Positions 43,184 through 51,583 of a stretch of DNA of 64,000 bases are shown one piece after another (the stretch's first letter is position 1; each line of letters begins with the position of its first letter). The stretch is from Longimicrobiales bacterium (GTDB lineage: Bacteria; Gemmatimonadota; Gemmatimonadetes; Longimicrobiales; Gaopeijiaceae), in the NCBI GenBank assembly GCA_951828585.1, contig OX639991.1, positions 2,326,576-2,390,575 on the forward strand, read 5' to 3'. The notes beneath the pieces are model-generated. The model did not search any database. It was not told the DNA's origin and worked only from the letters and a program-made list of their open reading frames with translations. Position numbers and translations under genes: made by a program.

Positions 43184-44752
43184 ATGACACCCGGCACCCA
43201 CCCGACCCGACGCCCCACCACCCCCGCCGCCGAGGAGATCCTGGGCGGCTACTTTCCCGTCCTCGACCACGGCTTCGTCGCGCTCGTCGACTACATGGGC
43301 ACCGACGACTCGGTGGAGCGCGCCGCCCGCGTCAGCTACGGCTACGGCACCCGCAAGGTCTCGGCCACCCGGGGCCTGATCCGCTATCTGCGCCGCCACC
43401 TCCACACCACGCCGTCGGAGATGGTCGAGTTCAAGTTCCACTGCGCGATGCCGATGTTCGTCGCGCGGCAGTGGATACGACACCGGACGGCCTGCCTGGC
43501 CCAAGGCACCGAGGTGTACTTCGACCTGCCCGGCGCGGAGGCGAGAGGGGAACGCAAGCTCTACAAGCTCCCCATCGAGGAGATCTGGCAACGCTTCCAG
43601 CCAACCCTGAACATGCGCCCGGACAAACAGCGGAACCCGTTTTTTCGCCGTGACCGCGTGAAGCGGATGAAGCTCCGGCAGATCGACGAAGATACGCTCG
43701 CGCTCCAGCACACCCGGATCGTGGACGTGTACCGAAATGGCGCGAAACCGGTCTTCAGAATGGTCCTGGAAGACGGCAAGTCGATCGAGGCCACGTCGAA
43801 TCACCGGTTCCTGTTCGCGGGGGGTTGGGACACGCTCCGCGGAGCAACCGGGCTGCGGGAGAAGGGTAGGCGGGCGGTCTGGAGACAGGGGGACTACTTC
43901 GTGCATGTGAACGGAGCGGCGGAGAAGCGCGACTGGACCTGGTTCCACAAAGCCAAACTCGTGCGAATCTCCCGCTTCGAGTACGTCGGCGAACGCGAGA
44001 CCTACGACCTCGAAGTCGAAGGCCCGCACCACAACTTCGTCGCCAACGGCATCGTCACCCACAACTCCGTCAACGAGTACAGTGGCCGCTACAGCCTCAT
44101 GCCGCTCCTCTTCTACAGCCCCGAGCAGGACCAGTTCTCGCTGCAGAGCGCGACCAGCAACCAGGGCCGCGCCCCGGGTTCCGTCACCCCCGAGTTCTAC
44201 CGCGATGCCATGCGCCGGTGGGAGAAGGTGCGTTCGCAGGCGGCCGGCGACTACGGCTGGCTCGTCGGCGAAAACGTGGCCCGCGAACTCGCCCGCATCG
44301 ACCTGCCGCTCTCGACGTACACGCAGTGGTACTGGAAGATCGACCTCCACAACCTGCTCCACTTCCTCACGCTCCGCGTCGACGACCATGCCCAGTGGGA
44401 GATCCAGGAGTACGGCCGCGTGATCGCTGGAATGGTCAAGCGCGTCGCGCCGCTCAGCTACGAGGCCTGGGTCGACTACCAGGTGATGGGCGACAAGTTG
44501 TCTCACGGCGAGATCCAGGCGCTGTCGCGGCTGGTGGCGGTGGATGGGGAGGGGTTGGCTGGGCGATCTGGGGCCGACCTGTCGAACGCCGACCTGGCCG
44601 AGCTGGGGCTTTCGGGGCGTGAGATCCGGGAGTTGAAGGAGAAGCTCGCGCCGCGCGACGTGCCGGACTACGAGTTGGATCTGGCGGTCATGCGGGACCC
44701 GGAAGAAGTGGCGGCGGAGATGGACAAGGCGGTGCCGGAGGTGGACCGGTAA
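43184..44752 (+). CDS. thyX: Flavin-dependent thymidylate synthase with an in-frame intein
   Basis: The precursor is 522 residues; after removal of the 191-residue intein, ThyX is 331 residues. ThyX makes dTMP from dUMP with FAD, NADPH and methylene-tetrahydrofolate. The N-extein ends QWIRHRTA and the C-extein resumes SVNEYSGRYS, so the ThyX motif RHRxxS is split exactly and the enzyme cannot work without splicing. Downstream conserved segments include SNQGR and the tetramer helices (DLHNLLHFLTLRVDDHAQWE). A ~70-residue charged C-terminal extension is present. ATG 43184 has no strong ribosome site. No thyA was seen in the window. Confidence 0.95.
   Translation: MTPGTHPTRRPTTPAAEEILGGYFPVLDHGFVALVDYMGTDDSVERAARVSYGYGTRKVSATRGLIRYLRRHLHTTPSEMVEFKFHCAMPMFVARQWIRHRTACLAQGTEVYFDLPGAEARGERKLYKLPIEEIWQRFQPTLNMRPDKQRNPFFRRDRVKRMKLRQIDEDTLALQHTRIVDVYRNGAKPVFRMVLEDGKSIEATSNHRFLFAGGWDTLRGATGLREKGRRAVWRQGDYFVHVNGAAEKRDWTWFHKAKLVRISRFEYVGERETYDLEVEGPHHNFVANGIVTHNSVNEYSGRYSLMPLLFYSPEQDQFSLQSATSNQGRAPGSVTPEFYRDAMRRWEKVRSQAAGDYGWLVGENVARELARIDLPLSTYTQWYWKIDLHNLLHFLTLRVDDHAQWEIQEYGRVIAGMVKRVAPLSYEAWVDYQVMGDKLSHGEIQALSRLVAVDGEGLAGRSGADLSNADLAELGLSGREIRELKEKLAPRDVPDYELDLAVMRDPEEVAAEMDKAVPEVDR
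43493..44065 (+). other. Mini-intein in ThyX (no homing endonuclease)
   Basis: 191 residues from CLAQGTEV (block A, Cys1) to NGIVTHN (block G, His-Asn), followed by Ser as the +1 residue. Block B is IEATSNHRF (TxxH). Block F is YDLEVEGPHHNFVANG. The ~75 residues between A and B are longer than usual and basic, but no LAGLIDADG motif is found, so it can splice but not home. It sits in the ThyX motif, directly after RHRTA. Confidence 0.92.
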
Positions 44753-47570: not shown

Positions 47571-48971
47571 CTACCGCTCCACACGCACCGTCTTCACATT
47601 CACGAACTCGCGCACCCCGAAGTCCGCCAGCTCCCTCCCGAACCCGCTCTCCTTCACCCCCCCGAACGGCAGGCGCGGGTCCGACTTCACGAAGTCGTTC
47701 ACGAAGCACGACCCGGCCTCGATCCCCTCACGCGCGATCCGCTCCCCGCGCTCCAGGTCCTCCGTGAACACGGCCGCGCCCAAGCCGTATGCGGTGTCGT
47801 TCGCGATCCGCACGGCCTCCTCCTCCGACCCGGCCCGGATGATGCACGCCACCGGTCCGAACATCTCCTCGTCGTAGGCGGGCATCCCCGGCCCCACCCC
47901 CGCCAGCACCGTGCACGGGTAGTACCATCCCGGCACCCTCGGGACCTCGCCGCCCAGCCTGCACACCGCTCCCGCCGCGATGCTCCGCTCGACCTGCCCG
48001 GCCAGATGATCGCGCAGATCCTCCCGCGCGAGCGGCCCGACATCGGTCGTCGCGGCCATCGGCTCGCCCACCCGCACGCCCGCCATGCGCGATACCACCG
48101 CCTCGGTGAACTCGTCGGCCACCGCCTCGTGCACGATGAAGCGCTTGGCCGCGATGCAGCTCTGCCCGCTGTTGATGAGCCGGCCGGTCACGCACGCCTC
48201 GACGGCGCGGGGAAGGTCGGCGTCCTCGAGCACGATGTAGGGGTCGCTGCCGCCCAGCTCCAGGACGCACGTCTTGATCTGCGCGCCCGCGAGCGCGGCG
48301 ACGTGGCGGCCCGCGCGGGTGCTTCCGGTCAGGGTGACGCCCTGGACGCGCGCGTCGAGGATGAGGTCGCCGGTGACGTCGACATCGATGAAGAGGTTGG
48401 TGAAGAGTCCCTTGGGCAGCCCCGAGGCCGGGCCGAAGAGGCGGGCCAGCTCGAGGGCGCAGCCGGGTACGCTGGGCGCGTGCTTGAGCAGCACCCCATT
48501 GCCCGCGATGAGCGCGGGGACGGCGGCCCGCACGACCTGCCAGAGCGGGAAGTTCCAGGGCATGATCGCCAGAACCAGTCCCAGCGGCTGGAAGGTGACA
48601 AAGCTCCGATGCGCCTCGGTTTTCACGAACCGATCCTTCAGGAACCCCGCACCGGCCCGGCTGTAGTACTCGCATCCACCCGCGCACTTCTCCACCTCGG
48701 CCAGGGACTCGGCCATGGGCTTTCCCATCTCCATCGTGACGATCTCGGCGAGGTTGCGGTGGTGGGCGCGGAACTGGCGCGCGACGCCCCCGACGAGCCG
48801 GGCCCGGTGCTGCGCCCCAACGCGTTGCCACTCGCGCTGGGCCTCCCGGGCCGAGGCCAGCGCGCTCTCCACCTGGCCGGGGCTCATGAAGGGGTACATG
48901 GCCAACACCTCGCCGTCGGAGGGGTTTACGGTCGTGAATCCGGGGTTGATTGGGGTCGATGCCACGGGCAT
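47571..48971 (-). CDS. Aldehyde dehydrogenase (succinate-semialdehyde dehydrogenase type)
   Basis: 466 residues. PWNFPLWQVVRAAVPALIAG is the cofactor-binding start, GVTLTGSTRAGRHVA the NAD fold, LELGGSDPYIVL holds the general-base Glu, and GQSCIAAKRFIVH the nucleophilic Cys. PFGGVKESGFGRELADFGV ends the catalytic domain. The family oxidises small aldehydes to acids with NAD(P); this spacing is close to Sad/YneI-type succinate-semialdehyde dehydrogenases. Divergent from the radical SAM gene. No strong ribosome site lies before ATG 48971. Confidence 0.88.
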   Translation of the reverse strand: MPVASTPINPGFTTVNPSDGEVLAMYPFMSPGQVESALASAREAQREWQRVGAQHRARLVGGVARQFRAHHRNLAEIVTMEMGKPMAESLAEVEKCAGGCEYYSRAGAGFLKDRFVKTEAHRSFVTFQPLGLVLAIMPWNFPLWQVVRAAVPALIAGNGVLLKHAPSVPGCALELARLFGPASGLPKGLFTNLFIDVDVTGDLILDARVQGVTLTGSTRAGRHVAALAGAQIKTCVLELGGSDPYIVLEDADLPRAVEACVTGRLINSGQSCIAAKRFIVHEAVADEFTEAVVSRMAGVRVGEPMAATTDVGPLAREDLRDHLAGQVERSIAAGAVCRLGGEVPRVPGWYYPCTVLAGVGPGMPAYDEEMFGPVACIIRAGSEEEAVRIANDTAYGLGAAVFTEDLERGERIAREGIEAGSCFVNDFVKSDPRLPFGGVKESGFGRELADFGVREFVNVKTVRVER

Positions 48972-49153: not shown

Positions 49154-50200
49154 ATGATTGCACCAGCCCCCGCGGTCCCCCTGACCTCCCTCGACCAGCT
49201 CTGGTTTCAGGTCGGCGGGACGGTTTGCAACCTTCGCTGCACGCACTGTTTCATCTCGTGCTCCCCCGACAACCATTCCTTCTGGTTCATGACCAGGGAA
49301 CAGGTGCGCAACGCGCTGGAGGAGTCCGCCGGGATGGGCGTGAAGGAGTACTACTTCACCGGCGGCGAACCGTTCATGAACCACGAGATGGTGGGGATTC
49401 TGGGCGACACGCTGCGGTACGGCCCGGCAACGGTGCTCACCAACGCCACGCTGCTGCCTCCTCGCCGCGTCGAGGAACTCAGGAGCATCTCGGAAGGCCG
49501 CTGCCATCCGCTGGAACTGCGCGTCAGCGTGGACGGTCCGACGGCCGCGACCAATGACGCGATCCGCGGCGAGGGCAGCTTCGAGCGCGCCATGGAAGGG
49601 GTGGGCGCCCTCGTGGACGCGGGTTTCCGTCCCATCATCACCACCATGCAGAGCTGGCCCTGCGAAGAGATGGCGTGCATGCTCCAGCGCTTCCGCGACG
49701 GGCTGGATGCGGTGGGGTATTCGGAGCCGAGGCTCAAGGTGCTGCCGCCGCTCCTGATCGGCGAGGAGGCCGAGCGCAACCGGGGCTACCGGCCCGACGA
49801 GCGCGTCACCCACGAGATGATGCACGGCTACGACCTCGACCAGCTGCTGTGCACGCGCGCGCGGCTGGTCACCGCGACCGGCGTCTACGCGTGCCCGATC
49901 CTGCTCGACTACCCGAGCGCCCGTCTGGCCGACACGCTGACCGAAGCGGTCGGCGTGGACGCGAGCCTCTGCGAGTCGGCGTGCTACACCTGCTACGTGA
50001 ACGGCGCGATCTGCTCGAACGCGACGACCGGCACGGGAGAGCCGGATGCGTGCGACGCCGGGGAACCCTTGTGCGACTCGGTTCCGGCCACCTGCGATGC
50101 CGAGCCGACGGCCTGCGACGTGGCCCCCGCCACCTGCGCGGACGCCTCCGCAACGAGCACCCCGGAACCGGTCGGCTGTCAGAGCCCCTCGGGGTCGTAG
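49154..50200 (+). CDS. Radical SAM protein with a heptad-cysteine C-terminal tail
   Basis: 348 residues from ATG 49154. The [4Fe-4S] motif is CNLRCTHC (CxxxCxxC), with GGTVCNLRC and the SAM-binding YYFTGGEPF next. TVLTNATLL and LRVSVDGPTAATNDAIRGEG are typical. YACPILLDYPSARL plus CESACYTCYVNGAIC form a C-terminal cysteine cluster like the auxiliary-cluster region of related proteins, where such proteins normally end. Here 58 more residues follow, with Cys at 300, 307, 314, 321, 328 and 342: every seventh residue, with Ser at the missing 335. The substrate is unknown. Tail-to-tail with the PPTase gene, overlapping by 22 bp. Confidence 0.82.
   Translation: MIAPAPAVPLTSLDQLWFQVGGTVCNLRCTHCFISCSPDNHSFWFMTREQVRNALEESAGMGVKEYYFTGGEPFMNHEMVGILGDTLRYGPATVLTNATLLPPRRVEELRSISEGRCHPLELRVSVDGPTAATNDAIRGEGSFERAMEGVGALVDAGFRPIITTMQSWPCEEMACMLQRFRDGLDAVGYSEPRLKVLPPLLIGEEAERNRGYRPDERVTHEMMHGYDLDQLLCTRARLVTATGVYACPILLDYPSARLADTLTEAVGVDASLCESACYTCYVNGAICSNATTGTGEPDACDAGEPLCDSVPATCDAEPTACDVAPATCADASATSTPEPVGCQSPSGS
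50051..50179 (+). repeat. 21-bp tandem repeat encoding the heptad-cysteine tail
   Basis: Six 21-bp units (50051-50176) start TGC GAC, TGC GAC, TGC GAT, TGC GAC, TGC GCG and AGC ACC, followed by TGT at 50177. Apart from the leading codon(s) and a Pro/Ala/Thr bias the units differ, so the register is kept while the DNA has drifted. The sixth unit has AGC (Ser), one base from TGC. Confidence 0.75.
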
Positions 50201-50898
50201 GCCAACCGCTCGACCGCGATCCGGGGGCGGTCCACCGCCAGCGCTGCTTCGGCACCTGAAGCGCACCGCACACCTCCGATGTGCCAGCGCGCCGGTTCCT
50301 CCGGCAGGCCCTCCACCCGCAGCAATCCCTGCTCGGCCCCGGGCGTCGGGTCCACCGAAAACGTCGTGAGCGGATGGGTGAGTCCCACCCCGACCGCCTT
50401 CAGGAACGCCTCCTTGCGGGTCCAGAGCCGGAAGAAGAGCTCCCGCCGTTCGTCGTCCGGGGCCACGTGGAGGCGCGCGGCCTCGTCGCCGCCGAAATTC
50501 TTGTCGGCGATGCCGAGCATGTACTTCACCTCCCTGATCTCCTCGATGTCAACGCCGAGCCGTCCCTCGGCCGCCACCCCGATCATGATCCGCTCCTCCG
50601 AATGGGACTGGTTGAAGGAAGGGCCACCGGGGAGGAAGGGCTTGCCGTGCTTCCCGAATTGGAAGTCGATGTCCTCCGGGCGGGTGTCGGTGAGTTGTGC
50701 GAGCACCCGGCGCAGGTGGGCCTGCGCGACCGTGTAGCGGCGCCGGTGGCGGTCGTAGATGAAGCGGTCGGCCCGCGTGCGCTCGTCGTCTGACAGCAGC
50801 GACCGGGCGGCGGCCGTGACGCGGCCGGGGACATCCAGCCGGCCCTCCCAGATGTAGACGACGCCGGGCTGCGGGTCGGCGTGTCGCGTGGTCGTCAT
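50179..50898 (-). CDS. 4'-phosphopantetheinyl transferase (Sfp type)
   Basis: 239 residues. FNQSHSEERIMIGVAAEGR, LGVDIEEIREVKYM and FFRLWTRKEAFLKAVGVGL are the three diagnostic motifs (SHS, GVDIE with metal-binding acids, WxxKEA) of Sfp-type enzymes, which load the phosphopantetheine arm of CoA onto carrier proteins of polyketide, peptide or fatty-acid synthases. No such synthase is in the window. The two-lobed length is normal for the type. Its 3' end overlaps the radical SAM gene by 22 bp, tail to tail. Confidence 0.92.
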   Translation of the reverse strand: MTTTRHADPQPGVVYIWEGRLDVPGRVTAAARSLLSDDERTRADRFIYDRHRRRYTVAQAHLRRVLAQLTDTRPEDIDFQFGKHGKPFLPGGPSFNQSHSEERIMIGVAAEGRLGVDIEEIREVKYMLGIADKNFGGDEAARLHVAPDDERRELFFRLWTRKEAFLKAVGVGLTHPLTTFSVDPTPGAEQGLLRVEGLPEEPARWHIGGVRCASGAEAALAVDRPRIAVERLAYDPEGL

Positions 50899-51049: not shown

Positions 51050-51583
51050 CTACTGCGGCACCCTCGGCACGGTGGTCGCGCACAAGGCCGAGGACATGCT
51101 GGCCCAGTTCGAGGCGGCGCGGGATGCGCGCGGCAAGGCGGCTCGGCGCCCCGTGGGCATCATGGTGGACTCGGCCCCGGACCTGCCGGATGCGGTGGCG
51201 CGAGCCCACGGTATCCACATAGTCCCGCTCCTGCTCATCGACGGCGATCGCACGATCGCCTGATCGCGCCGGGGCGGGTGAGCCAGTTCGCGGGCTGGCT
51301 GGGAGGCTTCCTGGACCTCAAGCCGGTCTTGGGGCTGGCCGACGACGGCACGGTGAAGGCGTGTGGCAAAGCCCGTGGAGCCGTCCGTGCGAAGAAGATG
51401 ATTCTGGACACGGTGGCGGCCGCGATTCCGACTGGCGCGAATAAGGTGCGTTTCGGGGTGATCACGCGGCCGCGCCCGAGATGGCGGATCTGTTGCGGAG
51501 CGAACTCTCGGCGCGCTACGAGGGCGCCGAGATCCTGGTCGCGCCGATCACGCCGGTCATCGCCATACATTCGGCGGTTCCGA
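51050..51583 (+). pseudogene. DegV-family (fatty-acid-binding) gene remnant
   Basis: Three DegV-like pieces lie in three frames: CGTLGTVVAHKAEDMLAQFE to RPVGIMVDSAPDLPDAVARA and HIVPLLLIDGD (stop at 51263), then GRVSQFAGWLGGFLDLKPVL and GKARGAVRAKKMILDTVAAA, then MADLLRSELSARYEGAEILV with ITPVIAIHS. Two frame breaks and a large deletion between the first two pieces have destroyed it. The last piece ends just where dispersed-element copy 2 begins, short of the usual HxGPGxxG end. Intact relatives bind fatty acids for FakA kinase. Confidence 0.7.

Follow-up and report, generated by a model that had tools for sequence, protein, structure and literature searches.

We observed that a radical SAM enzyme encoded in the window, the stretch of 64,000 nucleotides analysed here, ends in a cysteine-rich tail that belongs to a single clade of marine Gemmatimonadota, and that the conserved feature of this tail is cysteine itself and not its heptad spacing. 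The tail has a single origin, and it is almost certainly genuine and under selection. Disordered tails are usually dismissed as noise. In this one, cysteines persist although sequence, length and spacing change, a clear example, in an enzyme tail, of selection that acts on composition and not on sequence. The features that bear on this finding are the following:

47571-48971, minus strand: aldehyde dehydrogenase, divergent upstream neighbour that is kept in the clade (Pfam PF00171, 7e-135)
49154-50200, plus strand: radical SAM enzyme, 348 aa with a clade-specific C-terminal tail (Pfam PF04055, 6e-18)
49226-49261, plus strand: radical-SAM cluster motif C25-X3-C29-X2-C32 plus C36, four cysteines invariant in 73 homologues
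49661-49678, plus strand: C170 and C175, clade-specific helix cysteines; in the structure model the helix follows strand 161-165
49850-50014, plus strand: C-terminal auxiliary-cluster region, truncated and SPASM/Twitch-like, five invariant cysteines
50021-50197, plus strand: cysteine-rich tail predicted to be disordered, residues 290-348, Cys 300/307/314/321/328/342
50179-50898, minus strand: 4'-phosphopantetheinyl transferase, antisense, overlapping the tail by 22 nt (Pfam PF01648, 3e-17)

The window protein scores above the curated cut-off of PF04055 (Radical_SAM), which places it in the radical SAM superfamily. Nine cysteines are invariant in the 73 homologues (25, 29, 32, 36, 233, 247, 277, 280 and 287), and those of the auxiliary region follow the pattern C233-X9-G-X3-C247, then C277-X2-C280-X6-C287. 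The published seven-cysteine SPASM pattern is CX9-15GX4C-gap-CX2CX5CX3C-gap-C (PMC6231123). Compared with it, the spacing is X3 and not X4 after the glycine and X6 replaces X5, and the protein is not a full SPASM member, as the family has five cysteines against seven and lacks the last two. Confidence in the structure model is high for the core (242 residues at a pLDDT of at least 90), and a fold search with the model returned SkfB as the best match (6efn; E 8.5e-13, TM 0.56/0.51, 18% identity); BlsE, anSME, SuiB and ChlB were also among the nearest solved folds. SkfB, a sactipeptide maturase with a Twitch domain, shares the truncated auxiliary-cluster region; the window protein differs from it in having CX2CX6C and not CX33CXC, and in lacking an RRE or a precursor peptide. 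Twitch enzymes carry a single auxiliary cluster, and the window protein, with SkfB ranking first in the fold search, is a candidate for this type. A PDB sequence search gave distant radical-SAM matches only. The best NCBIfam model for the core, that of the Rv1681-family radical SAM protein (NF049973, 9e-30), scores 103.7 bits where 380 are required and spans residues 24-182 only, so the protein is no member of that family. The peptide maturase models lie far below their curated cut-offs (StsB, 65.8 bits versus 625; WgkB, 54.5 versus 650), as does the arsenosugar radical SAM model ArsS (TIGR04167, 49 bits versus 300), to whose family the protein does not belong.

A scan of GTDB genomes recovered 284 relatives of the enzyme, and the best 80 of the 284 were taken for comparison. 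Tail cysteines are present in 24/24 clade members (L031-L052, L076 and the window, from the best 80 of 284 relatives plus the window) and in 0/57 relatives outside the clade (from the same best 80). The clade corresponds to one genus, with the enzyme in 22 of its 23 genomes; some relatives are titled Longimicrobiales. Most relatives are metagenome-assembled genomes, and we read the clade members as mostly sponge-derived or similar, the sponge origin of many being taken from isolate names. In a tree built from the tail-less core (23 tailed rows, L076 left out), the tailed rows form one group with 100/99 support, corresponding to one change. The original prediction named a tail unique to this genome, with its cysteines unselected, as evidence that would count against it; instead, there are 24 tailed members that retain cysteine, and the same 24 assemblies rule out an assembly artefact. 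The wider enzyme family, which occurs in Gemmatimonadota, Planctomycetota, KSB1, Calditrichota and others, is uncharacterised. In one genus member (G009:C3:16409-17626; L026, L076), the radical SAM match comes in two pieces (query 4-64 and 57-328), perhaps owing to a frame shift or insertion.

The six tail cysteines sit where the original prediction had placed them, with codons that start at 50051, 50072, 50093, 50114, 50135 and 50177, six in 43 residues, and codon 335 is indeed AGC. The tail also runs past the CYTCYVNGAIC motif as described: relatives outside the clade stop 5-23 residues after it, mostly 8-12. The proposal that the cysteines are encoded by drifted 21-bp repeats is not supported. 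TRF detected no array, and unit identity beyond the TGC codons was 47% versus 42% in codon-shuffled sequence (p = 0.057), not clearly higher, and we rejected a tandem repeat at the DNA level. Nor is there any sign that residue 335 ever was a cysteine, lost by a single base, because the closest relative, L031, has alanine there and both L031 and L033 share the 14-residue gap of the window tail; a recent loss was therefore rejected. The seven-residue register is real in the subgroup to which the window protein belongs and in a few more, but sister groups use 8, 10 or 14. Across the clade, the number of tail cysteines ranges from 1 to 8, at spacings of 1, 7, 8, 9, 10, 13 and 14. The two members that branch off first terminate in CCG or CCEG and are no longer than outside relatives; in four others, the protein stops near one CGG-like motif or CCGG. 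The first tail cysteine lies 9-19 residues beyond C287 in every clade member, at no fixed position. The window tail is predicted to be disordered (pLDDT below 50 over 292-301 and 312-346), as is that of the basal member L048.

We next quantified the retention of cysteine. The 24 clade tails (830 codons) contain 74 in-frame cysteines versus about 17 expected from base composition, while the other two forward frames of the same tails give 4 and 32. The tail evolves more freely than the core, with a dN/dS mostly of 0.2-0.7 versus about 0.1 and frequent indels. Among close pairs aligned at the nucleotide level, which gives cysteine no reward, 56 cysteine codons were kept and 4 replaced, versus 332 and 210 for other codons (p = 1e-7, from overlapping pairs); with disjoint pairs, the counts were 24/2 versus 147/78 (p = 0.0036). 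Of 116 directional counts of in-frame TGY, 112 (97%) showed retention, compared with 20-64% for other codon classes with at least 15 counts. Out-of-frame TGY was retained in 12/63, a weaker control as it includes third codon positions. Since cysteine codons outlast their neighbours while spacing and length drift, it is cysteine that is selected, and neither register nor length.

Cysteines were also gained within the core. C170 is found in 83% and C175 in 78% of the clade, and both are absent outside it; a cysteine anywhere in residues 170-178 occurs in 23/23 clade rows versus 1/50 outside, with the basal members L048 and L052 using other positions of the same helix. Because this helix directly follows strand 161-165, it would, by the usual barrel layout, begin at the active-site face. 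Part of the gain may reflect a general rise in cysteine in the clade: the aldehyde dehydrogenase contains 2.0% cysteine in the clade versus 1.5% outside, where only 5 sequences were available.

The gene order at the locus differs between the clade and its relatives. Outside the clade, in 48 of the 53 loci with enough sequence, the radical SAM gene is followed on its own strand by a metallophosphoesterase gene (PF12850), and the radical SAM stop and the phosphoesterase start often overlap or touch. In the window, the phosphopantetheinyl transferase occupies this slot. The phosphoesterase orthologue is absent in 22/22 genus genomes that carry the enzyme, with no match or 30-33% paralogues, and is present at 55-84% identity in seven genomes from outside the genus that encode the enzyme (G023, G027, G028, G032, G033, G034 and G047). 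L062, a weakly supported sister of the clade (92/71) without tail cysteine, has the order radical SAM, phosphoesterase, antisense phosphopantetheinyl transferase, whereas in the clade the radical SAM gene lies directly against the transferase. The present order would be explained if the ancestor of the clade had lost the phosphoesterase gene by deletion. The tail cysteines, the helix cysteines and the loss of the partner fall on the same branch, so their co-occurrence counts as a single event rather than as repeated evidence. We also considered whether the tail could be left over from the lost phosphoesterase gene and set this aside as unneeded, because the tails of basal members do not exceed the length seen outside the clade.

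In more distant relatives (Planctomycetota, KSB1 and others), a flavin oxidoreductase lies upstream of the radical SAM gene, and in L088 (6663-8867) the two are fused in one reading frame, which supports a working pair. An ArsM-like methyltransferase stands beside the radical SAM and phosphoesterase genes in L085, L086, L088, L097, L100 and L102 (KSB1 and Calditrichota), possibly an unstudied pathway; the copy in L097 matches NF040538 at 377 bits, short of the 500 required. The uncharacterised family recurs in an operon of flavin oxidoreductase, radical SAM enzyme, sometimes ArsM-like methyltransferase, and metallophosphoesterase. Neither the flavin oxidoreductase nor the methyltransferase had a match in the window genome, although the positive controls of the ArsM search were found, and no metal-resistance gene was recognised beside the enzyme gene in the window. 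We propose no arsenic role for the window enzyme, as its genome has no match to the methyltransferase. Literature searches returned nothing relevant on a radical-SAM/metallophosphoesterase operon or on a cysteine-rich radical-SAM tail.

We considered four explanations of the tail, which we rank in the order ligand-transfer arm, auxiliary-cluster ligand, near-neutral extension and fused substrate. The reading that we tentatively prefer, short of being confident in it, is that the tail acts as a thiol arm, tethered to the enzyme and disordered, with a putative role in ligand transfer. By analogy with the tails of HgcB and MerA, its thiols would pick up a thiophilic ligand (sulfane sulfur, or an ion of a soft metal or metalloid) and hand it on to cysteines of the core that lie near the active site. 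In HgcB orthologues, the C-terminal tail is disordered and variable in length and cysteine number, and full methylation activity requires at least one C-terminal cysteine; in MerA, a C-terminal cysteine pair hands Hg(II) to active-site cysteines (PMC7305189). The clade tails share this combination of a disordered C-terminus and a variable cysteine count. HgcB, the ferredoxin of HgcAB mercury methylation, likewise carries its tail behind an iron-sulfur core (PMC7305189), but it is not a radical SAM protein, any metal substrate of the window protein is putative, and the window clade has up to 8 tail cysteines. The basal clade members end in vicinal cysteines (CCG, CCEG) like the MerA pair; MerA has an unrelated fold and chemistry, and transfer in the window protein is putative, drawn from the analogy.

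The earlier suggestion of a metal- or thiol-binding tail agrees with the disorder, the variable length, the cysteines kept without spacing and the helix cysteines gained in the clade. If any thiol within reach serves, the number and spacing of cysteines would be free to drift while cysteine is retained. Candidate receivers near the active site are the clade helix cysteines at 170-178, placed there from secondary structure only. A more elaborate and doubtful extension is that, after the loss of its partner, the enzyme evolved its own multi-thiol delivery arm together with receiving cysteines in the barrel-mouth helix; both the ligand and a causal link to the lost phosphoesterase are putative. 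If the arm does transfer a ligand, it would represent a new route for supplying a radical-SAM active site.

The main rival, possible but in our view rather unlikely, is that the tail supplies or caps ligands of the auxiliary iron-sulfur cluster. With five core cysteines versus seven in SPASM domains, and the last two of that pattern missing from CX9GX3C-gap-CX2CX6C, iron sites may be open, and a tail thiol could ligate such an iron, stabilising it or shielding it against oxygen. There is precedent in CteB, where a cysteine of its peptide binds the open Aux I iron, and in SuiB, where a linker provides a cysteine ligand (PMC6231123), and the close placement of the first tail cysteine after C287 in all clade members fits this role. 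However, the 57 relatives without tail cysteine keep the same core, so the cluster can do without the tail. Moreover, a single cysteine would be enough, with no need for 4-8, and the position of the first one varies.

It is unlikely that the tail is a near-neutral extension, in which deletion of the coupled downstream gene left the 3' end unconstrained, so that the frame ran on and accrued a disordered tail of low complexity. The touching or overlapping genes outside the clade, the raised tail dN/dS and the many indels are what this scenario predicts, but the cysteine codons are conserved far better than the codons around them, every clade member retains at least one tail cysteine, and the earliest-branching members acquired CC without exceeding outside relatives in length.

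The thioether reading of the original prediction, a fused RiPP-like substrate whose cysteines the enzyme would cross-link through its own radical chemistry, is poorly supported and improbable: the six cysteines within about 45 residues resemble SCIFF and other ranthipeptide precursors, three peptide maturases (SkfB, SuiB and ChlB) are among the nearest folds, and StsB and WgkB models are among the core-domain matches, but this likeness is general to the superfamily, the precursors are short separate peptides, and the tail has a variable cysteine count, no conserved acceptor residue or register and only one or two cysteines in its basal forms (CCG, CCEG or CGG), on a core kept whole in relatives without it. 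The 24 residues before the CX3CX2C motif are too short for an N-terminal RRE, and no SCIFF-maturase model was among the NCBIfam matches listed for the window protein. Searches of the 23 genus genomes found no free-standing look-alike peptide, and other tail copies in the genus were weak low-complexity matches only. The enzyme matches no curated sactipeptide or ranthipeptide maturase model above its cut-off.

Three further genes in the window depart from the length seen in relatives. An amidohydrolase frame (PF07969; 44956-47355, plus strand) measures 799 aa versus 521 aa in L031 and L043, likely through a frame shift. A short remnant of a DAK2/DegV (FakA-like) gene lies at 51072-51263 (plus strand), the full-length gene encoding 616-657 aa in L031 and L043. 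At 43184-44752 (plus strand), ThyX (PF02511) is split by an intein splicing domain (PF14890, 5e-11), giving a frame of 522 aa versus about 330-345 aa in relatives such as L063 and L084.
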